Assembly (NCBI RefSeq): GCF_020520425.1
Contig: NC_079490.1
Location: forward strand, 7,626,001 to 7,690,000
Length of the DNA: 64,000 nt
Direction of reading: 5' to 3'
From: Spinacia oleracea
Lineage: Eukaryota > Streptophyta > Magnoliopsida > Caryophyllales > Amaranthaceae
Shown here: positions 1-64,000 of the stretch, piece after piece
Numbering within the stretch: position 1 is the stretch's first letter
Layout: each line of letters starts with the position of its first letter
The notes under the pieces: model-generated
Seen by the model: the letters and a program-made list of their open reading frames with translations, nothing else
The model's database searches: none
Told to the model about the DNA's origin: nothing
Program-made: the position numbers and the translations under genes

Positions 1-3000
1 TTGATGAGAGTCAAAATAGGGCCTTAATTTCCGAGCTGCTACCACCACTGCGTATGCTACTTTCTCAACGAGTGGATACCGAGTTTCGGCATCCGTCAGG
101 GTTCGGCTGGTAAAGTAGATTGGCCGTTGCTTCTTTTCTTCTTCTCGGAGGAGCACTGCGCTTACGGTCCCGGGGCTGATTGCGACGTATAAGTACAGAG
201 TTTCCCCTTCTTTGGGCCTGGCTAGCGTTGGCAGTTGAGCTAGGTGAGCCCTGAGCTGTTGGAACGCGTCTCTTTGCTCTTGTTCCCATGTCAGCTCGGG
301 GTCCACCTTCCTCGGGACGCCTTTCTTTTTGATGGGTTCTGCTTCTCCTCCTGGGAGGGTCTTGGGTTTGAGAGCTTTGAAGAAGGGTGCCCCTTTATCC
401 GAAGCTTTCGATATGAATCTTGACATTGCGGCTAACCTGCCCGTTAGCCTTTGCACGTCTCTTTTTGTCTTCGGTTCGGGTAGATCTAGCGCAGCCTGGA
501 CCTTGTCCGGGTTCGCGTCTATTCCCCTTTCGCTCACCATGGATCCGAGGAACTTCCCTGACTTTACCCCGAAGACACACTTCTTCGGGTTCAATTTCAT
601 GTTGTATTTCCTCAGGTTGGCGAAGGTTTCGGCCAGGTCTTTGATGTGATCCTCTTCCTTCACGCTTTTTACTATGGAATCGTCCACATAAACCTCGACG
701 TTCCTTCCCTTTTGATCGGCGAAGACGTGATCAACTAGTCTTTGGTAGGTGGCTCCGGCATTTTTCAATCCGAAGGGAATCATTCTGTAGTTGAACACTC
801 CCGCGCTCGTGATGAAGGCGGTCTTCGCTCTATCGTCGGGGTGCATGAATACTTGATGGTATCCTGAAAAGGCGTCCATGAAGCTCAGCAATGCGTGGCC
901 ACTGGTAGAGTCTACCACCTGATCTATCCTCGGGAGGGGATAGCAATCTTTTGGGCAGGCTCGGTTCAGATCTGTGAAATCGACACACATGCGCCATGAG
1001 CCATTCGCTTTCTTGACCATGACCACATTGGCCAACCATTTGGGGTACATGCACGGCTCGATGAAGCCTGCCTCTTGCAATTTCTTCACCTCTTCGGCGA
1101 TAGCTTTATTCTTCTCCGAAGAGTAGTTTCTTTTTTTCTGTTTGATTGGTCGAGCCTCAGTACTGACATCCAGCTTGTGACAGATTATTTTCGGATCTAT
1201 GCCTGGCATGTCAGCTGCTGACCATGCGAAAATGTCTTTGTGATCTCTCAGCAACTGAATCATCTCTATTCGAAGTCTTGAGCCTAGGCCTTTTCCTATT
1301 AGGACATTCCTGTCTGAGTCATCCTCGAGGGAGATGTCCTCCATTTCTTGATCTGATTCGGGGGAGAGGGTTTCCGGCCGAGCATCAACCTCTGCGGGTT
1401 TTACCAGACTGCTCGACTCCGCCTTTCTCCTTTTGGCCTCTTTTCCTTCGCTTGGAGGAGGGCTTTTTTCATTCTCGTCTTCAGGGTTGTCTCCTAGCTT
1501 CGGTTTTCGGATGGCCGTGTGACAAGTTGACCTTGCCACCTCTTGGTCGCCTTTTATCCGCTCGGCGAAGCCTACGTCCGAGACGTACATCATCATCTGA
1601 TGGTATGTAGATGGGACTGCTTGTATTTTGTGGATCATGGTTCGTCCCATGATGACGTTGTACACTGAGTCGCAGTCCATCACTAAGAACTCCTCTCGGA
1701 CGTTTCTTGCCGCCAGGCCTTGACCGATTGTAACAGGCAGGGTGATCTTTCCTCGGGGGATAGCTGCAGATCCGTTGAATCCGATTAATGGGTAACTGAC
1801 CTTGGTCAGTGACTCTTCTCCCTCTTCGAGGATGAGCTGTTCGAAACAGTTCCTGAAGATGATATTGACAGCGCTCCCTCCATCGACTAGTACTCTATGG
1901 ACGTTGTGGTTGTTGAGATCCATTTCGATCACCAACGGGTCGTCATGTTTGTACTGGGTCCCGAGGCAATCGTCAGCGGTGAAAGTCATGTTCGGGGGGG
2001 GGGGGGGGGTAGGCTGATTCTCCCCTACATTGCTGAAGTTGACTCGGTGGGAGAGGGCCCTTAAGTGCTTCTTGCCGGCGTTGTTGGATCTTTGTCCTCC
2101 GAACACCACGAGGATTGGTTTTTTCTTTTGCCCTTCGGTCTCATGGACCCTTTTCTGGGCTTGCTCTTGCAGCTTACCAGATTTTGCTTTTTCTTTTTCT
2201 TCTCTTTCCGCCCTATGGTCAAGCAGGTAACCCTTGAGGTAGCCTCGTCGGATGAGGTCTTCGATGTTATCCTTCAACGAGTTACACTCCTCAGTGGTAT
2301 GGCCGAAGTCATCGTGGAATTCACACCATTTGTTCTTGTTGCGGTGGCGGGGGTTTGACCTGAGCTTGTCTGGAAGCTTCCACTTTTCATCGTCCTTGTG
2401 GAGGTTGAAGATTTCTCTTCGAGGTATGGTGAGTGGGGTGTAGTTGGTGTACTTGGGTTGAAATTCACCCTTCTTCCCATCTTTCTTGGGGCTCGCTTCT
2501 CTCGCACCCACCTTCTCTTTCCCCTTTCTTGAGTTGCCCTCGGGCTTACTCTGATTTGTTCTGTTATCTTTCGGATCCGAGGAACCTCTTAGCCTTGCTG
2601 CTGCCTTGTTGAACTCTTCCGTTCTGATGAACGCATCTGCCATTTGGAGCACGTCCGCTATTTTGGAGGGGTTTTTCATTGTCAGTTTGTCTCGGAATTT
2701 CCCCTCCCGTAGCGCGTGCTTCAAGGCGAAGATTGCTACGTCTGGCTGCAGGTTCGGAATGTTGGTGGATTCCTTCATGAATCTGGCCATGAAGTCTTGC
2801 AGGCTCTCGTCTCTTTCTTGCTGTATAGAGGTTAGCTCGGCAGTGGTTCGTTCTGGGCGATTGTCGCTCACGAACTGTACACAAAACCTCTTCTTCAGCT
2901 TCTTCCAACTTTTGATCGATCCCTTCGGCAGCGATCTGAACCATTCTCCAGCAACTCCTGTCAGCGTTGTTGGAAAGTATTTGCACCAGCAGGCTTCGGA

Positions 3001-3501
3001 GTAGGGACTCAGAAACATCTGTTGTTCGTAAGAGATGACATGATCCCTCGGATCTGTGATTCCGCTGTACGTCAGGTGCGCTGGTAGTCTCACTTTGGGA
3101 ATTGTCTCCATGACAATATCATCCGAGAATGGGGAAGATGCTAGAGTCATGACTCTCTTTCCTAGCCTCGCCCTGATACCTTCGCTTCTCGAGTTTCCTC
3201 TAAGGGACTGTTCGGGGGCGTGTAGGGGGCTAGGAGTTCGGTCACTTCTCCTTCTCCTTCTCGACTGGCCACTGCCCTCGGGTTTTCTACTGGACCCACA
3301 GGGGCTACCCAGCCTATTATGAACTGAAGGTCGCAGTCTGCTATGGACCGAGCTTCGGATCCGAGTTCGATCACTGGCCCCACTTTGGAGAGCTTGGGGT
3401 GTTGGAGACGGTGTTGCGAACCATTCTGGCTGCTGTGCAGCTCTCTGTTGCGTATACCACGTGCTCTCTCTCCACCTTGTCATTAGGTGCGTTCCTGACA
3501 T
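1..3501 (-). CDS. Gag-Pol polyprotein of the gypsy element (3' end beyond window)
   Basis: From the ATG at 3501 a single frame stays open for 1,167 codons to base 1. In order it encodes an Arg/Ser-rich stretch, a retrotransposon gag domain (about 3170-2640; YSGITDPRDHVISYEQQMF, GVAGEWFRSLP) and a knuckle-like CEFHDDFGHTTEEC (about 2310). Then come a protease with VLVDGGSAVNI (about 1890; DGGS where many relatives have D-S/T-G) and RT with RACPKDCYPLPRID, SGYHQ and EVYVDDSIVKS. The start of RNase H (YFTSRTLTDAETRYPLVEK) lies at the left edge. A 16-base G run at 1994-2009 (C on the coding strand) keeps the frame exactly as written, so one more or one fewer base would break it. The true start may lie further upstream in another frame (see 3483-3812). 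Confidence 0.85.
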   Translation of the reverse strand, partial: MSGTHLMTRWRESTWYTQQRAAQQPEWFATPSPTPQALQSGASDRTRIRSSVHSRLRPSVHNRLGSPCGSSRKPEGSGQSRRRRRSDRTPSPLHAPEQSLRGNSRSEGIRARLGKRVMTLASSPFSDDIVMETIPKVRLPAHLTYSGITDPRDHVISYEQQMFLSPYSEACWCKYFPTTLTGVAGEWFRSLPKGSIKSWKKLKKRFCVQFVSDNRPERTTAELTSIQQERDESLQDFMARFMKESTNIPNLQPDVAIFALKHALREGKFRDKLTMKNPSKIADVLQMADAFIRTEEFNKAAARLRGSSDPKDNRTNQSKPEGNSRKGKEKVGAREASPKKDGKKGEFQPKYTNYTPLTIPRREIFNLHKDDEKWKLPDKLRSNPRHRNKNKWCEFHDDFGHTTEECNSLKDNIEDLIRRGYLKGYLLDHRAEREEKEKAKSGKLQEQAQKRVHETEGQKKKPILVVFGGQRSNNAGKKHLRALSHRVNFSNVGENQPTPPPPPNMTFTADDCLGTQYKHDDPLVIEMDLNNHNVHRVLVDGGSAVNIIFRNCFEQLILEEGEESLTKVSYPLIGFNGSAAIPRGKITLPVTIGQGLAARNVREEFLVMDCDSVYNVIMGRTMIHKIQAVPSTYHQMMMYVSDVGFAERIKGDQEVARSTCHTAIRKPKLGDNPEDENEKSPPPSEGKEAKRRKAESSSLVKPAEVDARPETLSPESDQEMEDISLEDDSDRNVLIGKGLGSRLRIEMIQLLRDHKDIFAWSAADMPGIDPKIICHKLDVSTEARPIKQKKRNYSSEKNKAIAEEVKKLQEAGFIEPCMYPKWLANVVMVKKANGSWRMCVDFTDLNRACPKDCYPLPRIDQVVDSTSGHALLSFMDAFSGYHQVFMHPDDRAKTAFITSAGVFNYRMIPFGLKNAGATYQRLVDHVFADQKGRNVEVYVDDSIVKSVKEEDHIKDLAETFANLRKYNMKLNPKKCVFGVKSGKFLGSMVSERGIDANPDKVQAALDLPEPKTKRDVQRLTGRLAAMSRFISKASDKGAPFFKALKPKTLPGGEAEPIKKKGVPRKVDPELTWEQEQRDAFQQLRAHLAQLPTLARPKEGETLYLYVAISPGTVSAVLLREEEKKQRPIYFTSRTLTDAETRYPLVEKVAYAVVVAARKLRPYFDSHQ

Positions 3502-3812
3502 TGTGGAGAGATCTCGGGCCTCACATTGTCCTCGTCAGTCGAGGGCATGTTCAGAAATACTTGTCGCCTAGCTCTCCTCGCTTCTCGCCGTGCTGCTGCC
3601 TGGGCTTGTTCTTTCTCGTTGAAGAGGAAGTTTTGCATGATGGTCATGGCTGCAGCGAGCTCTTCTCGAGAGGGGAGTGGTCTGCTGGTCGTGGAGGTGG
3701 CCCTTGTTGGCTGCGACCTCGCCACTGAGTGCAGCTGTTCACCTCCATCGGATTCCGAATCCGTTTGGACAAGGACATCTCCCACCTGGTTGTCATTGTT
3801 GGGCATTTCCAT
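3483..3812 (-). CDS. Amino-terminal gag ORF, out of frame with the main gag-pol
   Basis: This 109-residue ORF starts 68 bases inside the LTR with MEMPNNDNQVGD. It carries an Ala/Arg/Glu-rich helix (EKEQAQAAARREARRARRQ) of the kind seen at the front of Tat-type gag proteins. It ends at a TAA that overlaps the first codons of the 1167-codon frame. The two frames differ by one base. Either this copy has a one-base indel near 3490-3530, or the element uses a frameshift or an internal start. I cannot decide without other family members. Confidence 0.55.
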   Translation of the reverse strand: MEMPNNDNQVGDVLVQTDSESDGGEQLHSVARSQPTRATSTTSRPLPSREELAAAMTIMQNFLFNEKEQAQAAARREARRARRQVFLNMPSTDEDNVRPEISPQCQERT

Positions 3813-12129: not shown

Positions 12130-14268
12130 GCATTTTTTACAATCTCACTTGCATGGGCCATGTCCACGCTATTATTGGTGTGGACCATGGTATTTTAGGC
12201 ATTTTACAACATTTAAAGATGACATGGAACATCAATGTTCACGTGATCCATAAAACGCGCGGCTCATATAGTAACTCTTACGTTGATATAGTTGTACTTA
12301 TATGTAATATAGTTATTCTACTAGTCATACAATAAACTTTAACAATATAATTATTAATATATGTGACATAGTTACTGCAAAGATTATATAGTAACTCTTA
12401 AGTTGATATAGTTGTACTTATGTGTAATATAATTACTCTAATAGTCATACAATAACTTTTTGATGTTATTTTGATAAGAATCCAATTACTTAATTATGTA
12501 TACACAGAGATATTGATTGTTTTATATCATATAGTAAATATTTCTATAAATATTTCTATCGTATAGAAATAGTTACTCTTCTATATCATATAGTAACTCT
12601 TTCTATTCTATAGTTACTATTATATATCATATAGTTAATGTTATAAAAAAGAGTAACTATATCAAAAATAAGAGTAATTATATATTCATTCTTGCAAGAA
12701 AAAGAGTAAATTATAGAAACTATATGTTCAATAAAGTACCTATATCTTCAGAATAGTAACTGTGAAAATTATAATAATAATTACATATCCATTTCGGTAA
12801 GAATAACTATTCAATCCAAAAAGTAATTATATCATATAAAAAGTAATTTTAACTATAGAACAATGACTATATTATAAAATAAACAATATGATATAGCTGC
12901 TTTAAAGGTCATATAGTAACGTTTTCTATTATATAGTTACTATTATATATCATATAATTTCTGAAATAAAAAAAGAGTAAGCTAAGTATATCAAAAGTAA
13001 GAGTAATTATAACTCTTGAACAATAATTAAGAAAAACATTAACTACATGGCTTGTTGTTTTTAGCTACGACATTCTAATTAATTGCATCTATTAAATAAA
13101 CCACATTAAACTCAAATGTTTTTTGAACTAAAAAAATACTAATTGCCACGTTCACGTCCCTTCCTTCCACCAGCACGTCGCCACGTCCTCTCCTTCCATG
13201 TCTGCGTCATCTCCTCCCTCTACTACGTCCTTGGTTTTCATTGTTGTCAGGATTTTCTTCTTCTTCTCCTGCTTTTGTTTTCCTTGCAGAAGTTATTCTT
13301 TGCTCGACTTCAATTGTGGATGCATCATCTTTGTATTTCTGAATCAATAATATATAAACTAAGTTAATAATTTAACATTTAAATATGAAAAAACAACATA
13401 GTAACTATGTAAAACATATAGTTTATATTACGCATCATTTAGTAACTCTTAGAATGATGGTAAGATACTCGCAGAATTGCAGATATAGTTATTGTTATAG
13501 TCATATAGTTACTGTCATATCACTCTCATTACTAATAACATAGAGTACAAAAAAAGAACATAAAAAGAACATAATAATATAGTAACTATTAAAAACATAT
13601 AGTTACTATTATACATGATATAGTATCTCTTAATATTAATGATAGTCATATACTAGCAGAGTTGCAGATATAGTTATTGCTATGATCATATAGTTATGAT
13701 CATAACACAGTAACTTCTATTACTAATAACGTACATAGAGGACAACAAAAAACATAAAAAGAATATTATAATATACATAATAACTATACCAATCATATAC
13801 TCCCTCCGTCCCATAATTATCGTCCTGCTTGACTAAAAACACGGATTTTAAGAAAAATGGAATATAGTACATGAAAAAGTGGAATAAAGTACAAATGATG
13901 ATTGAGTTGTATGGAAAAGTGGAATAAAGTACATGTGAAAGAGAATATAGTACATAGGAAAGTGGAATATAGTACATGGGTGGGGTTTTCAATTTATTTT
14001 CAATTAATATAGTACATGAGAAAGTGGGGACCTTAATAGCCAAAATTAGAAACAAGACTATAATTTTGGGACGCCCGATTTAGAAAACATGACAATAATT
14101 TTGGGATGGAGGGAGTAGTTACTATTATACAAGATATAATATCTACAAATATTATTGATGGTCATTTAGTCACAGAGTTGCAGACATAATTGGTGTGATA
14201 ATAATATAGTAACTTTATGACTAAAAATATAAAATAATATCAAAAACATGCACTGAACATAATAAACT
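12130..14268. mobile_element. Left part of a repeat-packed DNA element split by the copia insertion
   Basis: From about 12270 the sequence is filled with ATAGTAACT / AGTTACTAT words in both orientations. The same words resume right after the copia element (24651-25440). Close to each outer end is a near-palindrome (CACGCTATTATTGGTGTGG at about 12162; CACGCTAATTAGTGTGG at about 25496) and a CACGTGA core (about 12240 and 25443). This suggests one element of about 3 kb with poor terminal inverted regions and dense subterminal repeats. No transposase is recognised, and the class is open. Confidence 0.5.
13800..14115. mobile_element. Stowaway MITE with TA TSD
   Basis: Inverted ends CTCCCTCCGTCCCATAATTA / TAATTTTGGGATGGAGGGAG are flanked by TA (13798-13799 and 14116-14117). 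It sits inside the ATAGTAACT repeat array. The frame on the minus strand inside it is not a gene. Confidence 0.9.
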
Positions 14269-16483: not shown

Positions 16484-19400
16484 TCAAAGCCATTCTCCAA
16501 TATGCTTGATTCCCATAGCTGCAGTGTGCGAGTTGTGCTTCGCCTGCGGCAGAGGTTTAGTTAATGGATCTGATATGTTGTCATCAGTTCCAATTTTGTT
16601 TATCTCGACTTCTTTTCTTTCAACGAACTCTCGTAGAAGGTGAAATCTACGAAGTACATGCTTGACTCTCTGGTGGTGTCTAGGCTCCTTTGCCTGTGCA
16701 ATAGCTCCGTTATTATCACAATACAGGGCTATTGGTCCTTTAATGGAGGGGACTACACCAAGTTCACCTATGAACTTCCTTAGCCATATAGCTTCCTTTG
16801 CTGCTTCATGTGCAGCAATGTACTCCGCTTCAGTTGTAGAATCCGCAATGGTGCTTTGCTTAGCACTTTTCCAGCTTACTGCACCCCCGTTGAGGCAGAA
16901 GACAAACCCAGACTGTGATCTGAAATCATCTTTGTCGGTTTGGAAACTTGCGTCCATATAGCCTTTAACAATTAATTCATCATCTCCACCATAGACCAGG
17001 AAGTCATCTTTGTGCCTTTTCAGGTACTTCAGAATATTCTTGGCAGCAGTCCAATGCGCCTCTCCTGGGTCTGACTGGTATCTGCTCGTAGCACTGAGTG
17101 CGTACGCAACATCCGGGCGTGTACATATCATAGCATACATTATTGAACCAATCAATGATGCATATGGAATCCCATTCATTCGTCTACGCTCATCAAGTGT
17201 TTTTGGGCACTGAGTCTTGCTTAGAGTCATTCCATGAGACATGGGTAGGTAGCCTCGCTTGGAGTCCGCCATCTTGAACCTATCAAGCACCTTATTGATA
17301 TAAGTGCTTTGACTAAGTCCAATCATCTTTTTAGATCTATCTCTGTAAATCTTGATGCCCAATATGTACTGTGCTTCTCCTAGATCTTTCATCGAAAAAC
17401 ATTTCCCAAGCCAAATCTTGACAGAGTTCAACATAGGAATGTCATTTCCGATAAGTAATATGTCGTCGACATATAATACTAAGAAAGCAATTTTGCTCCC
17501 ACTGACCTTCTTGTATACACAAGATTCGTCTACGTTCTTGATGAAACCAAAGTCACTAACTGCTTCATCAAAACGTATATTCCAGCTCCTGGATGCCTGC
17601 TTCAATCCGTAGATTGACTTCTTTAGCTTGCATACCTTTTTAGCATTCTTTGGATCCTCAAAACCTTCAGGCTGTGTCATAAACACAGTTTCTGTCAAAA
17701 CGCCGTTTAAGAAAGCAGTTTTGACATCCATCTGCCATATTTCGTAATCGTAATATGCAGCGATTGCTAACATTATCCGAATAGACTTTAGCATTGCAAC
17801 TGGTGAAAAGGTTTCATCGTAATCCACACCGTGGACTTGCCTGTAACCTTTTGCAACCAATCTAGCTTTGAAAACTTCAAGTTTCCCATCCTTGTCCTTT
17901 TTCAGTTTGAAAACCCATTTGCTTCCAATGGCTTGGTAGCCATCTGGCAAATCGACCAAATCCCATACTTGGTTTTCAGACATGGAGTCTAATTCAGATT
18001 GCATGGCTTCTTGCCATTGCTTGGAGCTAGGGCTCGTCATAGCTTGTTTGTAAGTCGCAGGTTCATCACTTTCAAGTAATAGAACGTCATAGCTCTCGTT
18101 CGTCAAAATACCTAAGTACCTTTCCGGTTGAGATCTATATCTTTGCGATCTACGCGGGGTAACATTTCTAGATTGACCATGATTCTCACCAGATTCTTCT
18201 AAAGATCTCTGAGTTTCATCCTGAATGTCATCTTGAGCATTCTCTAGAGTTTGTTGTTCGACTCGAATTTCTTCGAGGTCTATTTTTCTCCCACTTGTCA
18301 TTTTGGAAATGTGATCTTTCTCCAAAAAGACACCATCTCGAGCAACAAACACCTTGTTCTCATATGTATTGTAGAAGTAATACCCCTTTGTTTCCTTTGG
18401 ATAGCCCACAAGGATACATTTGTCAGATTTTGGATGAAGTTTGTCTGAAATTAATCGTTTGACGTATACTTCACATCCCCAAATCTTAAGAAAAGACACA
18501 TTTGGAGGTTTTCCAAACCATAATTCATATGGAGTCTTTTCGACAGCTTTAGATGGAGCTCTATTTATAGTGAGTGCATCTGTATTTAGTGCATGTCCCC
18601 AAAATTCTAATGGAAGTTTGGCTTGACCCATCATTGACCTGACCATGTCTAGCAAGGTTCTGTTCCTCCGTTCCGACACACCGTTCCATTGTGGTGTTCC
18701 AGGAGGAGTCAATTCTGATAGAATTCCACATTCTTTCAGATGGTCATCAAATTCATAGCTCAGATATTCACCGCCTCTATCAGACCGCAGTGCCTTAATC
18801 TTCTTGCCTAATTGATTCTCTACTTCACTCTGAAATTCCTTGAATTTGTCAAAGGATTCAGACTTATGCTTCATTAGGTAGACATAACCATATCTACTGA
18901 AGTCATCAGTGAAAGTGATAAAGTAGCTGAAACCACCTCTAGCATTTGTACTCATTGGTACACATACATCTGTATGGATTAAACCCAATAGTTCAATTGC
19001 TTTTTCTCCAACTTTAGAGAAAGGTTGTTTTGTCATTTTGCCAAGTAAACATGATTCGCATTTACCATAATCCTCTAAGTCAAATGGTTCTAGAATTCCT
19101 TCCTTTTGAAGTCTTTCTAAGCATTTCAAGTTTATATGGCCTAATCGACAATGCCACAGATAGGTGAGATCTGAATCATCCTTTTTGGCCTTTTTGGTAT
19201 TTATGTTATAAACTTGTTTGTCGTGATCTAATAAATAAAGTCCATTGACTAATCTAGCAGATCCATAAAACATCTCTTTAAAATAAAACGAACAACTATT
19301 GTCTTTTATTAAAAAGGAAAATCCCTTAGCATCTAAGCAAGAAACTGAAATGATGTTTTTAGTAAGACTTGGAACATGGAAACACTCTTCCAGTTCCAAA

Positions 19401-20449
19401 ACTAGCCCGGAGGGCAACGACAAATAATAAGTTCCTACAGCTAATGCAGCAATCCGTGCTCCATTTCCCACTCGTAGGTCGACTTCACCCTTGCTTAACT
19501 TTCTACTTCTTCTTAGTCCCTGTGGATTGGAACATAAGTGTGAGCCACAACCTGTATCTAATACCCAAGAAGTTGAATTAGCAAGTATACAGTCTATAAC
19601 GAAAATACCTGAAGATGGAACGACTGTTCCGTTCTTCTGATCTTCCTTTAGCTTCAAGCAATCTCTCTTCCAATGCCCCTTTTTCTTGCAGTAGAAGCAT
19701 TCGGATTCAGAAGTGGGTTGACTGACCTTCCTCTTTACAGATTTGGCGCCAGTTTGCTTAGTTGGGCTGGCCTTGTTGCCACCTTTCTTAGCATTCCTCT
19801 TCTTTCCAGATTTCTTGAACTTGCCCCCACGCACCATAAGCACATCCTGCTTATCACTTTTGAGCGTTTTTTCAGCGGTCTTCAGCATACCGTGAAGCTC
19901 AGTGAGCGTTTTGTCCAGACTATTCATACTGTAGTTCAGTTTGAACTGATCATACCCGCTATGAAGAGAATGGAGGATGGTGTCTATAGCCATTTCCTGA
20001 GAAAATTGCTGATCCAGCCGACTCATATTCTCAATGAGTCCAATCATTTTGAGAACATGTGGACTTACGGGCTCGCCTTTCTTAAGCTTGGTCTCAAGAA
20101 TTTGCCTATGAGTCTCTAATCTTTCGACTCGAGCCAGATCTTGGAACATGTTCTTCAACTCACTGATGATTGTGAAAGCATCTGAGTTGATGAACGTTTT
20201 CTGCAGATCTGCACTCATGGTGGCGAGCATTAGACATTTCACATCCTTGTTGGCATCAATCCAACGATTGAGGGCTGCCTGAGTGACCCCGTCGCCTGCG
20301 GCTTCGGGCATCGCCTCTTCTAGGACATACTCCTTTTCTTCCTGCATAAGAACTATTTGCAAGTTCCTTTGCCAGTCAAGGAAGTTTTTCCCGCTCAACT
20401 TCTCCTTTTCGAGAATTGATCGAATGTTGAATGAATTGTTGTTTGCCAT
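16484..20449 (-). CDS. Ty1/copia Gag-Pol polyprotein, 1,321 residues, intact
   Basis: The start is taken at MANNNSFNIR (20449). The frame is open 31 codons further upstream, but those residues are hydrophobic and unlike gag. Order: UBN2-type gag (about 15-200), zinc knuckle C251-C254-H259-C264, and aspartic protease WVLDTGCGSH (295-304). Next are the GAG-pre-integrase HCRLGH with CESCLLGK and the integrase core with D494, D557 and E593. RT follows (WVFKLKKDKDG, then YVDD at 993-996), then RNase H (GYMDASF, STTEAEY). All catalytic residues are present and there is no stop or frameshift. It acts in virus-like particles in the cytoplasm and in nuclear integration. This copy could be autonomous. 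Confidence 0.95.
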   Translation of the reverse strand: MANNNSFNIRSILEKEKLSGKNFLDWQRNLQIVLMQEEKEYVLEEAMPEAAGDGVTQAALNRWIDANKDVKCLMLATMSADLQKTFINSDAFTIISELKNMFQDLARVERLETHRQILETKLKKGEPVSPHVLKMIGLIENMSRLDQQFSQEMAIDTILHSLHSGYDQFKLNYSMNSLDKTLTELHGMLKTAEKTLKSDKQDVLMVRGGKFKKSGKKRNAKKGGNKASPTKQTGAKSVKRKVSQPTSESECFYCKKKGHWKRDCLKLKEDQKNGTVVPSSGIFVIDCILANSTSWVLDTGCGSHLCSNPQGLRRSRKLSKGEVDLRVGNGARIAALAVGTYYLSLPSGLVLELEECFHVPSLTKNIISVSCLDAKGFSFLIKDNSCSFYFKEMFYGSARLVNGLYLLDHDKQVYNINTKKAKKDDSDLTYLWHCRLGHINLKCLERLQKEGILEPFDLEDYGKCESCLLGKMTKQPFSKVGEKAIELLGLIHTDVCVPMSTNARGGFSYFITFTDDFSRYGYVYLMKHKSESFDKFKEFQSEVENQLGKKIKALRSDRGGEYLSYEFDDHLKECGILSELTPPGTPQWNGVSERRNRTLLDMVRSMMGQAKLPLEFWGHALNTDALTINRAPSKAVEKTPYELWFGKPPNVSFLKIWGCEVYVKRLISDKLHPKSDKCILVGYPKETKGYYFYNTYENKVFVARDGVFLEKDHISKMTSGRKIDLEEIRVEQQTLENAQDDIQDETQRSLEESGENHGQSRNVTPRRSQRYRSQPERYLGILTNESYDVLLLESDEPATYKQAMTSPSSKQWQEAMQSELDSMSENQVWDLVDLPDGYQAIGSKWVFKLKKDKDGKLEVFKARLVAKGYRQVHGVDYDETFSPVAMLKSIRIMLAIAAYYDYEIWQMDVKTAFLNGVLTETVFMTQPEGFEDPKNAKKVCKLKKSIYGLKQASRSWNIRFDEAVSDFGFIKNVDESCVYKKVSGSKIAFLVLYVDDILLIGNDIPMLNSVKIWLGKCFSMKDLGEAQYILGIKIYRDRSKKMIGLSQSTYINKVLDRFKMADSKRGYLPMSHGMTLSKTQCPKTLDERRRMNGIPYASLIGSIMYAMICTRPDVAYALSATSRYQSDPGEAHWTAAKNILKYLKRHKDDFLVYGGDDELIVKGYMDASFQTDKDDFRSQSGFVFCLNGGAVSWKSAKQSTIADSTTEAEYIAAHEAAKEAIWLRKFIGELGVVPSIKGPIALYCDNNGAIAQAKEPRHHQRVKHVLRRFHLLREFVERKEVEINKIGTDDNISDPLTKPLPQAKHNSHTAAMGIKHIGEWL

Positions 20450-23298
20450 ATTTAAAACTACAATTGAAAAGAATAAACAAATAAATAACCATTCACAGTT
20501 TCTCTTAATAAACTTAAATTCTAGCATACATGCATAATTCAATGTTCATTAAGCATTTTATTCAAGTTATGTGTTCCGGCAGGTTTGAATAAAATGATTC
20601 CAAGATCCTAAAATCATTGAAGAACTAAGCACAATTTGTCGACTTAATCCTAAAACATCTTAGGTAAGCAAAAGCCTTTTGCTAATAGTCTAGAAACTAT
20701 TCTTGGTTGATAGGTACGTCTAAGAACTTATTAGGTAAACCTATCGATTTTGCCACGACATAAATGGACTCCTTACTTATATCGTTGAGTTTCACCAAAA
20801 CTAACATGTACTCACAATTATTTGTGTACCTTGCCCCTTTAGGACCAATAAGTAACACCTCGCTGAGCGAAAACTATTACTAGATTGATGTAAAGGATAT
20901 CCAAGCAAGTGTATATTTTGGCATGGCACCTTTTAACTCAATTTTCAAGTTTGGAACTTAAGGCTCTTACTATGTTGGTTAAATTTTAAGTGAACTAAAA
21001 TCTTTAATCATGCAACATAATCAAGCTTTGATCTCATGCATTTTAAGACATATTTAAAAGCAATAAATAACTTAAAACATGCATAAGATAAATGTGATCT
21101 AGTATGGCCCGACTTCATCTTGAAGCTTTAACTTCAAAGTCCGTCTTGAAAATCTCCGTGGGAGGCACCATTTTCTTCAAATAGGATAAGCTATAGACCA
21201 ATTACATTCAAATTAATGGTACGCAGACCATATTTTCTATCCTATTTGGGCCATACTAGTCACTTCATAACCTGCAAAACAGTACATATACAATATATAC
21301 CATTCACCCATTCATTATCATGAATGGCCCACATAGCTGGTTAGTAAAACACATTATGCATCACATAAACATTTGCAGCAATTAATCAAGGGCACCAATA
21401 ATCTACAAATTATTCAGTCCTTATTAATTCTAATCAAGTTGTTTTAACCTTAAGGATTTGTAGACCTAATCAAGAGTTTATGACTAAAAGGGCTCCCACT
21501 TAAACCAATAAATTCATATGCTTTACTAATTTTAAACATAAAAATATATTTCTAGTCTAACCGGAAACATACAAATTTAATTAAAATTTAAAGCTCATAT
21601 AAATTTATAATTGAATCCACAAAGTTTAATTTAATTTCAGTCGTATTTAAATTAATTCATGATTTTAATTTTAGTAAAATAATTAGAATAAATAAAATTT
21701 ATTATAATTACAATATTCAAAATTAAAATCCAAGAAAATAATTTAAATTATTAATTTTAAAATTAATTAAAATTACGTAAACTGAAAATTTCAAATTAAA
21801 ATTTCAAAACGATCTAATCGCATTGCAACAACCCCACGCAACGCACGCCCATGGGCCATACGCACACAGCCATCGCTGGCCATGTGCGCGCAGCCCATGC
21901 GCTGCGTCGCATCGCTGCTGCTCACCTTCGCAAGGCATCACGCGAGCTGGTGCTCGCTGCGCGCGCCAGCGCTCGATGCACGCGAGCCATCGCTCGCTGC
22001 GCTCGATCCATGCGAGCCATCGCTCGCTGCGCGCGCTCGCTAGTGCTCAATCCATGCGAGCCATCGCTCGCTGCGCGCGCTCGCCAGCGCTCGATCCATG
22101 TGAGCCATCGCTCGCTGCGCGCGCTCGCCAGCGCTTGATCCATGCGAGCCATCGCTCGCTGCGCGCCTGCCTTTCCCGCACGCGAGCTTGCGCTCATTGC
22201 ACGAGGCAGCAGTATGCGAGCTGGCGCTCGCTGCGCGCGAGGCATCGACGCTGGGCGTAGCACTCGTGGCACGCGAGCTTGCGCTCGCTGCGCGCGAGGC
22301 TCCGCACGCTTGCGCGAGGCAGTGCGCGCTGTGGCGCAGCACGCTTGCTGCCCACACGCGACTGCTGTGCCTTGCTTTCGCCCTCGCCCATTCGCCCATT
22401 GCATACAGCCCACGACATAAGGCAGGGCTGCTGCCTTGTGCTCGTGCACCATGGCCTTGCTCATTGCATTCGTGCCGCATGGGCGACGAGCTCCCTTGCT
22501 CGTCGTCACACGCCCGCACTATACAACACCCCTTAAGGGTAACACGTAGCGTCCATTGCTTTGTGCGTGCAAGTTATATGAGCGAATCGCATAAAAATTT
22601 AAAATTTATATTCAAAATTAATGATGAATTAATAAATAATATTAATTTCATAATTTTAGGGTGACAAATCGAAAATTTATTATTCAATTGATTTCCGATT
22701 AACATGGATTCAAGTCTAGGTCATAAAAATTTAAAATTTAACATAAATTTACAATTTTTATGGTGGTTTTTAATCAGAGGTATCTAATTAAATTATAACT
22801 AATTATGAAAATCAAATTAATTCTAAATTATTCCAATTTTCAACAAATTAATCATAATTACAAATTAGATTGCATAATTAACAAGGCTAGGCATTCAAAC
22901 TTGTTAAACATATACAGTAGGTCAATCAAAAATTCAAGATTTATCAACAAGAATCGCAAATATTTAATTTAACATCTTAAATTTACGAAATTTTGCATTC
23001 GAAAAACTAAAACCTCCGAAAAGTCATAGTTATACTTCGAATTTGAGAATTCTGGGTTCAGCCGAAAAATACAATTTTTGTCAAAATTTTAGAATGCCTT
23101 TTACATGTGGAATTGACACAAAAATCACTCGATTTGGATGAGTAACGAAGAAACTGCCGAAAAACTGCGTACGTATAATTAAATAAACGCAATTTGCAAT
23201 TAATTAACAATTACGAAAATTAATCACCCCTTTTAATTCTTGCAAATTTGTAATATTTAACCATGTTCATGCAATTTAGATTATGAAAATAATAAGAG
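20450..23298 (-). other. Long 5' leader of the copia element
   Basis: About 2.85 kb lies between the primer site and the polyprotein start, unusually long for copia. It is AT-rich except for the GC-rich minisatellite block (about 21825-22400). No second gene is recognised. The many overlapping frames in the GC-rich block are products of its composition. Confidence 0.7.
21960..22175. repeat. GC-rich minisatellite, unit of about 44 bp, in the copia leader
   Basis: About four tandem units of the type CCATGCGAGCCATCGCTCGC + TGCGCGCGCTCGCCAGCGCT + CGAT. Diverged GCGAGC/GCTCGC words continue to about 22330. The block is very GC-rich within an AT-rich leader and is rich in inverted CGAGC/GCTCG words, so the RNA would be strongly folded. 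Confidence 0.85.
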
Positions 23299-59061: not shown

Positions 59062-59610
59062 TACTCCCTCCATTCCCTTTTGTTCTTCCCCTAAAGAATG
59101 TTGGGTGTGGTTTAAGAAAACTGAATCTTGGTTTGTATTGGGATATGAATAATGATTGGGTGTAAGAATAATGATTGGGTGTAAGAAATTGAATAAAGTA
59201 AAGAGAGAGAAAGTATTTAATTAATAGGGAGAAAAGTAGATATTTTATTAAAGTAATGAAAGAAATCAGCAAAAAATTTCAGTCACATGGGGTATGGGAC
59301 CCATCAGCTGTTACATGGACCAATCAGATTTAATCATACAATGACTCACGTTTTTTTTGGCTGGAAATTAAGCCCAAACAATTGATTTCAGTTTTCCCTC
59401 CAAATTTCCCCCCCAAATAAAAAAACAGGGGATTTTTAATTTCCCTCCAAATTTTTGAGGGGTTGACATAGTGTATTCCCTTTATAAATAGGGTCACTTT
59501 CCCCCCACAAAAGACCAAAATCTGACTTTTACCAAGTTCAATAAATACAAGGAAAACACCAAAATTTCTTCCTCAATTCAGCATTAAATAGCAAAAAAAC
59601 AGGGGACTTA

Positions 59611-61257
59611 ATGGCTTCAGATCAAGAGGATGACGATTTCCTCGGATTTTCTGATGATGAAGGCGATGGAATTAACTCCGATTCTGACTCAGAGGTAGGT
59701 GATGATGCTGCTGACTTGGTACAAGCTTCTCAAAATACTGCTGCTGATTTTGGGGACATTGGGTTTAATGAAGATGTACCAAACAGCACTGAATATGTAC
59801 AGCAAGTACCAGAAGTAGAAGGGGAAGGGCAGCAGCAAACTACCAACTTTCAAGAGGTACCATTTCTTTTTTATTTGAACTTTCCACCACCATCAGAAAA
59901 TGCATCACCAATTCATCATCAAACAGCAACACCCAGAACAGATCATCATAAGCCTAGGACTCCTAGAATAAATAATGAATTGAGGCTTGAAATTTTGGTG
60001 TACCTGCTGAATAGAAAAATTCCAGATTCAGAAACTCTTTTGTTTGGGACAATAAGGGATGCAGCCATAGAATTTGATTACAACAGAAAAACCATAGGGT
60101 CAATATGGGACAAAGCAAAGAAGCAGAAGGCAGCAATGAATTCATATGTGGTGGAAAGTAAGTATCACAAGTGTGGCAGGAAAAAGGTTCAAGTCACATA
60201 TGACTCTATTGCACAAATAGCCATGGGGGACAGAACATGCATTGTAGATCTTGCAAGAATGCTCAATTTGGGACCAACAACAGTATGGAGGCTCATCAAG
60301 AGGAAAATTATTAAGCCACACTCAAGTCCCTTGCATCCAGGCATTTCAGATGCATGCAAAATGGCAAGGATGAGGTGGGTACTCAGACTAATAATGGATT
60401 ACACTATACCACAAGAACCAACATATTACAGCATGTATGACTTCATTCATATTGATGAGAAGTGGTTTTATTTGACTCAAAAAAACCAGAGAGTTTATCT
60501 TGCAAACAATGAACCCTATCCACATAGAAGTGCAAGTTCAAGAACCAAGATACCAAAATTCATGTTCATGGCAGCAGTAGCCAGACCAAGGTGGGGTGAA
60601 AATGGGAATTGTGAATTTGATGGTAAAATAGGCATATTTCCATTCACAAATGCAGTTGCAGCCAAGAGGACATCAAAAAACAGAGTAAAGGGGACCATTG
60701 AAACAAAGCCAGTGAAGTCTGTGAATCAAATTGAAACAAGGGCAATGATGATCAACATGCTAATTCCAGCAATCAAGGCAAAGTGGCCACCACATGAAGG
60801 GGAAAAGGTCATCTATATCATTCAAGATAATGCAAAGGCACATATATTGCAAAATGATCCTGAATGGCAACTACACTACAAACAAGATGGGTTCACTTTT
60901 GTGTTGACTCAACAGCCAGCAAACAGTCCAGATTGCAACATCTTGGACTTGGGATTTTTCAGGTCAATACAATCACTTATGCACAAGAAAATGCCTAAAA
61001 CTGTGGAGGACTTAAGTGGAGCAGTGTGTGATTCTTTTAATGAGTTGCATCCTAAGACATTGTCTAATGTGTGGATGACATTACAGTTTGTTTCTAATGA
61101 GATTCTAAAACACAAAGGCAACAATGATTACCAACTTCCACACAACAAGAAGAAGATTTTAGAAGATCAAGGCAGACTGCCAGAGCAAGTCAAGGCACCT
61201 ATATGGGCAGTTAATGAATGCTTGCAACTCTATGATGAATGGAAAGCAAACCAGTGA
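59611..61257 (+). CDS. Plant mariner-like transposase, 548 residues, intact
   Basis: The product has an acidic N-terminus (1-80) and a first helix-turn-helix region (about 122-175, RLEILVYLLNRK... KTIGSIWDKAKK). A second follows (about 197-255, DLARMLNLGPTTVWRLIKRK). The catalytic domain has FIHIDEKWFYLT (D282), IIQDNAKAH (D406) and SPDCNILDLGFFRSIQ (D446). The spacing D406-39-D446 is the DD39D signature of plant MLEs. It would cut and paste the element at TA sites in the nucleus. All catalytic residues are present and there is no stop. A possible small intron (GAG|GTACC...CATCAG at about 59855-59898) would be in the acidic linker, but the frame is open without it. The word ACAGGGGAC just before the ATG recurs at 63305 and 63800. 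Confidence 0.93.
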   Translation: MASDQEDDDFLGFSDDEGDGINSDSDSEVGDDAADLVQASQNTAADFGDIGFNEDVPNSTEYVQQVPEVEGEGQQQTTNFQEVPFLFYLNFPPPSENASPIHHQTATPRTDHHKPRTPRINNELRLEILVYLLNRKIPDSETLLFGTIRDAAIEFDYNRKTIGSIWDKAKKQKAAMNSYVVESKYHKCGRKKVQVTYDSIAQIAMGDRTCIVDLARMLNLGPTTVWRLIKRKIIKPHSSPLHPGISDACKMARMRWVLRLIMDYTIPQEPTYYSMYDFIHIDEKWFYLTQKNQRVYLANNEPYPHRSASSRTKIPKFMFMAAVARPRWGENGNCEFDGKIGIFPFTNAVAAKRTSKNRVKGTIETKPVKSVNQIETRAMMINMLIPAIKAKWPPHEGEKVIYIIQDNAKAHILQNDPEWQLHYKQDGFTFVLTQQPANSPDCNILDLGFFRSIQSLMHKKMPKTVEDLSGAVCDSFNELHPKTLSNVWMTLQFVSNEILKHKGNNDYQLPHNKKKILEDQGRLPEQVKAPIWAVNECLQLYDEWKANQ

Positions 61258-61640
61258 AGCAAGGTGAAAACAATTAGATAACTTTTTGTGTTTTGGAAAC
61301 ATGTTTTTAAATTGACAAGTAAAACCAATGTGTCACTTTTGTAAGCTTAAATGCAAGCATAACATGTAGGCAAAACATTTTGTAAGCATATCTTTTGGAA
61401 GCATCAATGAATGAATCTCATGTTTAAGTTTAGTAAAGTTTTTTTCCATCATTCTTATTCACATCAATGTAGAGTAATCAAGGCAAGGCAATAAACATCA
61501 AATGAGTACATAACAAGAACAAGGCAGCATTGGCAGAAAAAGAACAAGGCACAAGAGGTAAGGCAACATTGGCAACACTATAAACAAGGCAGCATTGGGT
61601 TATTAAGAACAAGGCAGCATTTGCAATATCACAACTCTAA
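61258..61640. other. Downstream region with AACAAGGCAGCATTGG repeats
   Basis: After the transposase stop there is an AT-rich 3'UTR-like part. From 61515 there are four to five irregular copies of AACAAGGCARCATTGGC. The first hairpin of the cluster follows. Confidence 0.6.
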
Positions 61641-61642
61641 AC

Positions 61643-61722
61643 ACATCGGCTTCAAAATGGAAATAAATAATAATATCACATCATTTTCAGATGGAAATTA
61701 TTCCCATTTTGAAATCGATGCG
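61643..61722. ncRNA. RNA hairpin A1 (candidate small-RNA precursor)
   Basis: Arm 61644-61660 (CATCGGCTTCAAAATGG) pairs with 61704-61720 (CCATTTTGAAATCGATG). Pairing continues inward with ATAAT/ATTAT. The loop contains ATCACATCATTTTCAGATGG, which is shared with hairpin A2. Expression unknown. Confidence 0.5.
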
Positions 61723-61836
61723 TCAAAAGATGTAATTTTGACAAAAACAATCAATTCATCATTGATAACACATGGAATATGCCTCACATAAACAAAGAAT
61801 CATAATTATCTCAGAATATCCCCAAAAATCATTGAA

Positions 61837-61923
61837 TCAAACCCTTTCCAATTAAACTTAGCTCCTGAAAAACATCATGGATGCTAATGGTGCATGAGTT
61901 TGATTGAAAAACATAGGGTTTGA
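61837..61923. ncRNA. RNA hairpin B1 (candidate small-RNA precursor)
   Basis: The 5' arm TCAAACCCTTTCCAATTAAA pairs with a 3' arm around GTTTGATTGAAAAACATAGG + GTTTGA, with a bulge. The terminal part carries a second small stem (CATCATGGATG). The flanks (ATCTCAGAATATCCCC before, GACTCATCACAGATCA after) are shared with B2 and B3. Confidence 0.5.
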
Positions 61924-61995
61924 CACTCATAAAATGAAGACTCATCACAGATCACAAGGCATAAGTACACAACTTTAACACATCACATCTCTAAA

Positions 61996-62073
61996 CACAT
62001 CGGCATCCAAATGGAAAGAATGCATATCACATCATTTTCAGATGGAAATTCTTCCCAATTGGATGCCGATGTG
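61996..62073. ncRNA. RNA hairpin A2, near-perfect 25-bp stem
   Basis: 5' arm 61996-62020 (CACATCGGCATCCAAATGG then AAAGAA) pairs with 3' arm 62049-62073 (TTCTTCCCAATTGGATGCCG then ATGTG) with 2 mismatches in 25. The loop is 28 nt. Size, near-perfect duplex and short loop are what a plant miRNA precursor needs. Neither arm matches a miRNA family that I know. Confidence 0.6.
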
Positions 62074-62188
62074 CCAAAAGATGTAATGGACAAGGAAACA
62101 AGAACAAAGCAGCAAAAACAAGGAAGCAATGAACAAGGCAACATCATTGAATCTCAGTTAAGTTGTTTTACATCATTGACAGATTTGT

Positions 62189-62303
62189 TTCTAAATGATT
62201 TACAACCTCACCACCAATTCACCAAAGGGGATACTAGATCAATCAATGATGTGACATGATCTGTATTCCCTTTGGTAATTGGTGGTGAAGGACATGTTTA
62301 GAA
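62189..62303. ncRNA. RNA hairpin C (candidate small-RNA precursor)
   Basis: 5' arm CTCACCACCAATTCACCAAA + GGGGATACTAGATCA pairs with 3' arm TGATCTGTATTCCCTTTGGT + AATTGGTGGTGAAG. The single-base bulges lie at C and T. The outer stem extends to TTCTAAA/TTTAGAA. Loop about 15 nt. Confidence 0.55.
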
Positions 62304-62457
62304 TCAAATATCTCAGGTTATCAACACATACATCACAGAATATCAACACTAACATCATTGAATATCAGAAACACATTATACATGTTTTGCAAGACATGAA
62401 TTGCCTCTCCTGTCAAACATGACATAAGATCTCAGAATGTCCCCAAGCATCATTGAC

Positions 62458-62543
62458 ACAAACCCTATCCCCTAACACTTAGCTCCGGAAGAGCATCAAT
62501 GATGCTAATGGTGCACAAGTGTTATTGGAACATTGGGTTTGAG
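62458..62543. ncRNA. RNA hairpin B2 (candidate small-RNA precursor)
   Basis: 5' arm AAACCCTATCCCCTAACACT pairs with 3' arm AGTGTTATTGGAACATTGGG + TTT. The terminal part has the perfect small stem AGCATCAATGATGCT. Flanks and terminal loop resemble B1 and B3. Confidence 0.5.
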
Positions 62544-62623
62544 TCTCAGCAAATGAAAGACTCATCACAGATCAAGCATAACAATAACAATCAACAATGC
62601 ATCAGATCACCATGAACTGATCA

Positions 62624-62667
62624 AAACATAGGGTTTGAACCTCATCAAATGAAAGACTCATCACAGA
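62624..62667. repeat. Half copy of the B-type unit
   Basis: Only the 3' side is present: AAACATAGGGTTTGA and the flank AAATGAAAGACTCATCACAG. The 5' arm is missing. Confidence 0.6.
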
Positions 62668-62780
62668 CCTCCACTGATTCATGGGACATGAAGCATTAAA
62701 CAGATCATTAACATGTAGGGTTTCATTTCTCAGACATATTGACACACATCATTGATCAAGTAGTTTCAATACTATCATAT

Positions 62781-62870
62781 CTTTAACATTCTTCTGCCGA
62801 ACGGAATGATTGATATTCACATTCCATTGTGTGAAATGACATTCACTCCGTTCGACAAAAGAAGTTAAAG
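62781..62870. ncRNA. RNA hairpin D (candidate small-RNA precursor)
   Basis: Arms of about 41 nt. CTTTAACATTCTTCTGCCGA + ACGGAATGA pairs with TCACTCCGTTCGACAAAAGA + AGTTAAAG, with one bulge and a few mismatches. The loop is about 8 nt. Confidence 0.55.
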
Positions 62871-62970
62871 GACAATTATCAAAACAAAGATCTCAGAATA
62901 TCAACAATCACATCATTGAAGATCACAAACCTCCTAATATTGATCTCAGAATGTCCCCAAGCATCATTGA

Positions 62971-63061
62971 AACAACTCCAAACCACAAACACTTAGCGCC
63001 CGAGAAATATCATTACTGATACTAATGGCAGCACGAGCATTTGTGGTTAGTAAGACTTGTT
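62971..63061. ncRNA. RNA hairpin B3 (candidate small-RNA precursor)
   Basis: 5' arm AACAACTCCAAACCACAAAC pairs with 3' arm TTTGTGGTTAGTAAGACTTG + TT. The arm sequences are quite unlike B1/B2, while the flanks (ATCTCAGAATGTCCCCAAGC, AAAGACTCATCATCGATCA) and the terminal part (CTTAGC...ACTAATGG) are shared. Confidence 0.5.
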
Positions 63062-63099
63062 CCTCAGCAATAAAAAGACTCATCATCGATCACAATAAA

Positions 63100-63584
63100 T
63101 AAAGGGACATTACTGTATCCTAAAGGGACATGCTTGGACATTAAGCATTCAACACAAGGCCACACTGAGAGGACTGAAATAACTCAAACCCTATCCCCAA
63201 ATTATATTCATTTCATGCCTTTACTAATCCAAAACATAGTTATACTGATCAAATCTCATACTCACCAAAGCATCATATTTATCATACACAAAACATACCA
63301 TAAAACAGGGGACATTAAGCCATCAAATCATGTTCATCACACAGACAACATTCCACAAAATTTCATAACCATATGGAAACACCATCATCCAATCATCATT
63401 ATCAATATCAATATCATAACATCATTATCTAACATCAACATCCATACAACTAATCACAACATCATAATCCAAACAACAACACCCCTGGCCAACAACAGAT
63501 CACAGTTGTTGGCATCCACCTTATGACTCCACAGCTAGCCAGCATTCAATAAAATTAAAAAAGGGAGAAAGGAGACAGACTTAT
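63100..63584. other. No gene seen; CATCAT-rich stretch
   Basis: A/C-rich plus strand with many ATCATCA/AACATC words. The plus frame at 63134-63526 is Ile/His/Thr-rich and reflects composition only. Confidence 0.5.
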
Positions 63585-63767
63585 CTAAGCATCATCAGAT
63601 GCTGAAGCCGATTTTTTTCCCTTTTCAACTTTCTTTGAGGAGGGATAACCAGATAAAAGTTGCCCAGGAGACCCAACAGCATCACCATTCTCATTTTCAC
63701 ACTCTCCAACATACACCAGATCAAATGAATCAGACCCACTTGGTTCATTGCAATCAATAGGGGACAA
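63585..63767 (-). CDS. Possible last exon of an unknown minus-strand gene
   Basis: A 60-codon frame rich in Ser/Asp/Lys (SGSDSFDLVYVGECENENGD ... SKKVEKGKKSASASDDA) ends at a TAG. Codon use looks coding-like, and the segment has the character of a protein tail. A splice acceptor-like TTGATTGCAATG lies near its start, so the gene would continue to the right, beyond 64000. I do not recognise it. It could be a second gene of the mariner element or an unrelated gene. Confidence 0.3.
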   Translation of the reverse strand: MSPIDCNEPSGSDSFDLVYVGECENENGDAVGSPGQLLSGYPSSKKVEKGKKSASASDDA

Positions 63768-64000
63768 ACAACGTGATTAGTGCCATCATAAAATAACAGG
63801 GGACCATGAATTAAAATCAGATTTAATCAAACAACTCAAAATAAAGTTCCAAATAATTTCAGATCACCATGGTTACCACATGCAATGAGATAAATGAGAG
63901 CAAATCACACAATAATTCCATTAAAATCCAACTAATTTTCCGAATACATCCAGATCCCATTTTTACCCAAAAAATGTCAAATAATATCCCAAATACATCC
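63768..64000. other. No supported feature
   Basis: AT-rich, with another ACAGGGGAC word near 63800. No right terminal repeat of the mariner element is seen. Confidence 0.5.

Follow-up and report, generated by a model that had tools for sequence, protein, structure and literature searches.

A mariner-like transposon of spinach carries an array of co-varying hairpins that may be microRNA-like precursors

Results

The window analyzed here is a stretch of 64,000 nucleotides from Spinacia oleracea (RefSeq assembly GCF_020520425.1, contig NC_079490.1, positions 7,626,001 to 7,690,000 of the forward strand). At its right-hand side lies a mariner-like element of about 6.26 kb, the right end of which is beyond the window (Table 1). 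We set the ends of the element by aligning four other copies, three of which span both ends and match 59062-65322/65324 as two overlapping pieces, while the fourth (L013) matches only from 60697. The 5' terminus reads TA followed by CTCCCTCC (59062-59071) and the 3' terminus reads GGAGGGAG followed by TA, at 65322 in window numbering. The element has both hallmarks of plant mariner-like elements, namely a TA target site with CTCCCTC-type inverted termini and a mariner/Tc1-type transposase. Elsewhere in the window, TACTCCCTCC occurs on the plus and the minus strand about 320 bp apart (13798-14117), likely marking a Stowaway-type miniature element, and two open retrotransposon polyprotein frames, typed by eye, lie on the minus strand: a Copia-type frame of 1353 aa at 16484-20545 and an open-ended Gypsy-type frame of 1178 aa at 1-3534.

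Table 1. Features of the mariner-like element in window coordinates; z-scores are for folding on the minus and plus strands
Feature	Position	Strand	Basis or remark
Mariner-like element	59062..64000, continuing to 65322 (L009:1322)	+	alignment with other copies
Transposase ORF, plant mariner type	59611..61257	+	intact, 548 aa
Hairpin A1	61637..61725	-	z -8.0 minus, -5.7 plus; covariation
Cassette B1, alpha class	61807..61955	-	repeat comparison, fold; z -2.6 minus, -2.5 plus
Hairpin A2	61988..62080	-	z -9.0 minus, -7.2 plus
Hairpin C, homologous to D	62185..62312	-	z -7.8 minus, -8.2 plus
B-type flank part (ACAGAATATC...CATCATTGA)	62334..62372 (about)		by eye; repeat family D2
Cassette B2, alpha class	62428..62574	-	repeat comparison, fold; z -2.8 minus, -4.1 plus
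Half cassette B4	62623..62680	-	one arm and one flank only
Hairpin D	62778..62875	-	z -10.3 minus, -7.1 plus
B-type flank part (ATCTCAGAATATC...CATCATTGA)	~62887..62931		77.8% to B2 over 45 nt
Cassette B3, beta class, most changed arms of the window family	62942..63091	-	z -3.1 minus, -1.3 plus
ORF2, last coding exon	63585..63776	-	open frame 63585-63776
ORF2, exon 1	64463-64770, past window end (L009:463-770)	-	spliced gene

The element holds two convergent genes, with an array of hairpins between their 3' ends. The transposase has 1122 homologues, and some of the best 120 of these 1122 are named transposase or mariner transposase. Against Pfam it matched HTH_17 alone, below the cut-off of that family, and a search of bacterial plasmids for the transposase found none. 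Between the window family and four other families its dN/dS was 0.15-0.24. The second gene, ORF2, matched a spinach protein of 155 aa (P0121) at 96% and another (P0123) at 68%. P0121 starts with MGSSxS, which we take to be an N-myristoylation-like motif. When 5.8 billion proteins were searched within a length limit, five relatives of ORF2 came up, and no significant relative was found in Pfam (exon 1 alone queried), NCBIfam or PDB, nor any clear domain. For exon 1, dN/dS was 0.11-0.15 between the window family and families F44, F46 and F47, and 0.15-0.24 between F2 and the same three; synonymous sites were saturated between the window family and F2. Values of 0.41-0.94 among the close relatives F44, F46 and F47 reflect few changes. 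ORF2 is a second conserved gene within a plant mariner. Its intron end varies between copies (window 63760-63790 versus L010:4770-4800), and because of this difference splicing of ORF2 may be abnormal in the window copy and likewise in some others.

As shown in Table 1, the array comprises seven hairpins: A1, A2, B1, B2, B3, C and D. An initial annotation had described B1, B2 and B3 as cassettes in which constant flanks and loop surround variable arms that pair. All three were found with these flanks and loop, and each folds on itself; to them our analysis added half cassettes, hairpins A1, A2, C and D, and the surrounding mariner element. Over a gap-free 102 nt, B2 is 80% and B3 63% identical to B1, and BLAST joined B1 with B2 over 148 nt (E = 1.5e-34), B2 with B3 over 151 nt (E = 1.9e-20) and B1 with B3 over 92 nt (E = 3.3e-11). 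Some of what had been called "constant flanks" in the B cassettes is a basal stem. A1 and A2 are copies of each other. C and D share 55 nt of 3' flank at 85%, above all 300 shuffles, and are weakly alike in their 5' flanks (12 of 300 shuffles as good) and, head-to-head, in their stems (9 of 300), which became alignable once relatives were added. A search with C picked up D loci in the window element (E = 1.6e-9) and in family F47 (E = 1.1e-10). From the half cassettes (62623, ~62887 and, by eye, ~62334) it would seem that cassettes have been duplicated and lost more than once.

Plant MIRNA genes are expected to give a single-stranded foldback of less than 300 nt with a near-perfect 21-nt duplex. 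Six of the seven hairpins have such a foldback, with a 19-bp duplex containing at most three mismatches, and B1 does not, its best duplex having six. No Rfam family reached its curated cut-off in the window, the best match below threshold being MIR1509 with 36.9 versus 87 bits.

The array is present in many copies. A query with 61800-63100 returned 290 first-look candidates, and all 40 that were scored had 99-100% identity. Among the 80 matches listed for the related transposase P0003, at least 76 had 74-75% identity, the window copy included, and 66 of these 76 had no internal stop. The P0002 query listed 35 matches at 88-100%, four of them partial, and reached the first window-family members. 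The near-identical copies and stop-free transposases together indicate that the array multiplied recently along with apparently intact transposases. As with precursors of the miR820 type, the hairpins lie inside a DNA transposon and are amplified with it. Over 38 window-family copies, nucleotide diversity was lowest, of the parts compared, in the hairpins (0.0058) and rose through the ORF2 intron stretch (0.0077) and the spacers (0.0098) to the transposase (0.0164), with the variants listed for D and B3 resting on 12 copies only.

We compared the regions downstream of transposases in the P0003-family groups F44, F45, F46 and F47 (L044-L047), the P0002 family F2 (L048-L050), the P0004 family F4 (L051, L052) and the distant P0012 family F12 (L053, L054). 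Most of the diverged spinach relatives examined bear such hairpins, in varying numbers. Hairpins of the A, B and C/D types recur in F46, F47, F2 and F4; F44 has B cassettes only, F12 has B cassettes only among the types searched for, and the stretch fetched for F45 (L045) gave no array match. The relatives also contain a third member of the C/D cassette type, which we call E, and a third and a fourth B class, gamma and delta, where alpha to delta are labels coined in this analysis and delta is heterogeneous. The P0012 transposase is 52% identical to that of the window over 84% and 49% identical to P0003, and despite this transposase identity of about 50% the arms of the F12 gamma cassette are recognizably the same. 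A sugar-beet transposase, P0011, stands nearer to that of the window (56% identical over 78%) than P0012 does, so B cassettes would be expected in beet if they are inherited. A candidate ORF2 relative in F12 is a weak match (10 of 20 residues, E = 0.005). Additional long hairpins particular to the P0012 family lie beside its B cassettes (L053:850-1110, L054:520-665).

Across families, hairpin bases align more often than spacer bases; in F47, 853 of 854 hairpin bases aligned versus 471 of 1126 spacer bases. Two F2 copies, L048 and L049, are 99.7% identical over 3.4 kb and differ by a stretch of about 138 bp with most of hairpin C, so a hairpin can disappear cleanly. MAFFT misaligned the apex of B3 when given B1-B3 alone, and a hand alignment was used, followed by alignments of 16-28 cassettes. 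F45 enters no alignment, alignment A4 omits the alpha cassette of F2c, which is near-identical to that of F2a, and alignments A3-A5 are without the hairpins of F4 and F12, which were found later.

We then asked whether the paired arms change together, as the initial annotation had proposed for arms that differ, strongly so in B3, and still pair. Across the 24 pairs of the middle stem, B1 and B3 differ at 14 positions of the 5' arm and nine of the 3' arm; each of the nine 3' changes faces a 5' change, and seven of them keep the pair (P printed as 0.0000 with 20,000 redeals), although this test is biased because the three sequences tested also supplied, through their folds, the structure it used. 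Two pairs were kept between B1 and B2 (P = 0.038) and four between B2 and B3 (P = 0.0027), and slid pairings of B1 and B3 kept 0-2. Larger alignments bear out the B1-B3 result. In the alignment of C, D and E (11 sequences), 94.1% of cells were paired and 14 of 26 pairs had two-sided change; no shuffle among 500 did as well on paired cells, two-sided counts or covariation score. Among 16 B sequences two-sided change occurred in 20 of 60 pairs (1 of 500 shuffles), while for paired cells, doubly changed cells and covariation score 0 of 500 did as well. The result was less strong for A (seven sequences), with two-sided change in 6 of 43 pairs (12 of 500 shuffles) and a covariation score reached by 0 of 500.

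Slid pairings gave two-sided counts of 3-8 for C/D/E, 4-9 for B and 0-3 for A, controls that lean toward the structure because the structures derive from these same sequences. The structures that RNAalifold predicted by itself had 14, 13 and 6 two-sided pairs for C/D/E, B and A. A measure of further pair types was not above shuffles (120 of 500 for C/D/E, 191 of 500 for B). The shuffles keep relatedness, and related sequences without structure can exceed such a test. Paired bases change together, which shows that the fold is under selection. The first of the two explanations given by the initial annotation, selection on structure with changing arms, is thus supported by covariation in B, in C/D/E and, to a lesser degree, in A.

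The conservation of arms, loops and flanks depends on class. By their arms, the 28 full B cassettes can be sorted into four classes. Between cassettes of the same class in different families (82 pairs), the 5' arm differs by 15.7%, the 3' arm by 11.8% and the flanks by 9-10%. When cassettes of one family but of different class are compared (36 pairs), the arms differ by 52% (5') and 33% (3') and the flanks by 18-23%. The further cassettes were all found by similarity to B1-B3, and the gamma genomic sites by a gamma arm, so the sharing of flanks is partly ascertainment because cassettes were found by their similarity to known ones. B arms are slightly less conserved than the apex. From these comparisons the flanks, as a basal stem, and the apex stand out as a common scaffold.

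It had been claimed that the array reverses the pattern of normal miRNA families, in which arms are conserved while loop and flanks drift. This held between B classes and among A hairpins, where 20 of 21 pairs had arms that differed more than the loop, and failed for C, D and E, where the loop diverged more than the arms within a class in 9 of 10 pairs. Arm variation had no codon-like period of three bases, as no arm set was significant (smallest P = 0.083).

Between transposon families, the arms of any one class are much more conserved than synonymous sites. Transposase dS between the window family and F2, F46, F44 and F47 was 1.25, 0.73, 0.67 and 0.56, the F46 and F47 values coming from 393 and 172 codons of broken frames. 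Arm divergence was 0.06 for A1 and 0.076 for D between the window family and F2, and 0.097 for C between the window family and F46, while for B2, 8 of the 57 arm sites are not shared with F2. Overall, A1, B2, C and D arms diverged by 0.06-0.16 per site where transposase synonymous divergence was 0.7-1.25 in the same families. A2 arms were 0.17-0.20 from the A hairpins of F46, F47 and F2_A2. B3 evolved faster than A1, B2, C and D, with 17 of 57 arm sites different from F2. Relative to F2 and F44, B3 differs at 12-14 of 28 sites in the 5' arm and 4-5 of 29 in the 3' arm, with 4-7 differences in the two flanks together and 4 in the apex. The B3 arms, singled out by the initial annotation as strongly different, may represent a recent change of guide in the window family.

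The array is probably read from the minus strand, which would place it downstream of ORF2. Free energy was lower on the minus strand in six of the seven hairpins, and z-scores favored it in five, B1 barely, with B2 and C folding better on the plus strand. Read on the minus strand, G-U outnumbered A-C cells by 31:1 in A, 40:8 in C/D/E and 26:10 in B. By our estimate the A/C-rich plus strand alone gives a G-U excess of about 3:1, and hence only the A hairpins are clearly beyond the expectation from base composition. A simple strand test (43 A-C versus 11 G-T cells, P = 1.4e-5) is no proof because the A/C-rich plus strand favors that outcome.

Discussion

We consider it reasonably probable that the array is a transposon-borne set of microRNA-like precursors, with predicted minus-strand transcription, cutting by Dicer-like (DCL) enzymes and targets in trans, that diversifies by duplication and co-varying change of its arms. 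Under this scheme a minus-strand transcript would cover the array, which on that strand lies downstream of ORF2. From what is known of plants, Dicer-like enzymes would read the scaffold and cut each hairpin into a class-specific small RNA of 21-22 nt, with the common basal stem and apex holding processing constant while the guide region changes. The small RNAs would act in trans, most plausibly on host mRNAs of the silencing machinery, as miR820 does; this is the least supported step. New classes would come about when a hairpin is duplicated and its arms then change in a co-varying manner. A more ambitious version, possible if rather doubtful, is that this mariner lineage carries an evolving counter-defense kit of ORF2 protein and miRNA-like array, the members of which are duplicated, retargeted and lost as host silencing genes change, and that with this kit the element can build up many apparently intact copies in spinach.

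We searched the genome for the complement of the gamma 5' arm, allowing at most one mismatch, and found 82 sites versus one for a reversed control pattern. Judged by the arm sequence itself, 69 of these were exact, each with one of three arm variants known from cassettes. Five of the 13 one-mismatch sites were fetched and proved to be four gamma cassettes and one unrelated place. No host target was found for the gamma guide, the only one searched, among these five inspected genomic sites. The window copy itself contained no gamma cassette. One frame of the gamma 5'-arm complement reads LWF[MI]xHG and three genomic variants are seemingly synonymous, as if they belonged to a host gene family; this candidate was dropped, as the three variants, once fetched, proved to be gamma cassettes of other elements.

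Other explanations must be weighed against trans-acting small RNAs. The hairpins could be cis-acting structured RNA, in the form of 3'-end elements of the transposase or ORF2 messenger, with arms free to vary while paired. Roles might include stability, export, a shield between convergent genes or binding sites for the ORF2 protein. Both the position of the array between two convergent genes and the covariation, which reflects selection on pairing, would fit. However, pairing alone would let the arms drift, and same-class B arms differ by only 12-16% where transposase dS is 0.56-1.25. We regard a purely cis-acting role as unlikely.

There is a slim chance that the small RNAs instead hit the element's own transposase or ORF2 mRNA and so limit copy number. 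The best guide of the window family scored 4.0 on the window-family transposase, beating 20 of 20 and 10 of 10 shuffled targets. Yet the same guides scored 3.5 on F44, and F44 guides scored 6.0 on their own transposase versus 5.0 on F2 and F47. The transposase of the same family was the best target in only one of five families (F2, with 5.0 on its own and 5.5-6.5 on others), leaving self-targeting of the transposase unsupported.

Slimmer still is the chance that these are decaying inverted repeats feeding siRNAs that silence the element, with gene conversion explaining the similarity between families. Hairpins can go, as in the two F2 copies that differ by most of C, and half cassettes occur. 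But two-sided changes are not a product of gene conversion, the spacers show no homogenization, and the hairpins are the least polymorphic part among the 38 copies. The same losses bear on the expectation of the initial annotation that the arms of copies across the genome should pair, which stands only in part: L055 and L059 have half cassettes and one copy lacks most of C. Its further concern, that arms might be drifted versions of one another without compensation, was borne out for the drift-like appearance of the arms and not for the absence of compensation.

Wholesale swapping of arms in a fixed cassette, the second explanation of the initial annotation, is scarcely credible: between classes the 5' arm does differ by about 50% and the flanks by about 18-23%, but the arms of C, D and E can still be matched one base at a time, with most of their differences compensated; alpha and beta arms need no gaps apart from two additional bases in B1; and between families the arms of a B class are preserved almost as well as its flanks (12-16% versus 9-10% difference).

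Transposons are normally the targets of small RNAs. If trans-acting microRNA-like precursors are the right explanation, the array would represent a genome parasite that keeps small-RNA genes of its own inside an apparently intact and recently amplified transposon. It would also offer a natural series, in which the scaffold is constant while the guide changes, for the origin of new miRNA specificities and for what Dicer-like enzymes read. Six 15-mers of the arms had no match in a text search of the literature. Among the open-licence literature matches listed, with subscription journals mostly outside, none described a mariner that combines a conserved second gene with a diversified hairpin array of several classes.

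Transposon-borne miRNAs as such are already known from miR820 and MITE-derived miRNAs. In the account of Nosaka et al. 2012 (PMC3459959), miR820, which is carried by rice CACTA elements, reduces the DNA methyltransferase DRM2 and has evolved in step with the site that it targets; five CACTA copies are given for Nipponbare, and the precursor is possibly derived from the target gene. The spinach array resembles that system in having a miRNA-like precursor within a DNA transposon and amplified along with it, and in a guide that changes while pairing is kept, although the pairing of miR820 is with its target DRM2 (PMC3459959). Unlike miR820 as reported there, the spinach element has seven hairpins, paralogous classes, a shared scaffold and 40 near-identical scored copies. 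The array is also similar to the trans-species miRNA superfamilies of Cuscuta in comprising sets of related, varying guides, but guide variation described for Cuscuta has a three-nucleotide period matching synonymous sites (PMC6917502), which the spinach arms lack. The TA target site, CTCCCTC termini and mariner transposase are those of plant mariner-like elements and Stowaway, which are described as usually encoding one transposase (PMC4423477), whereas here a conserved second gene and a hairpin array are added. Finally, MITE-derived miRNAs such as hsa-mir-548 from Made1 likewise come from mariner-related DNA; the source reported for them is short MITEs (PMC1784062), whereas in spinach the hairpins are internal to an element with an intact transposase gene.
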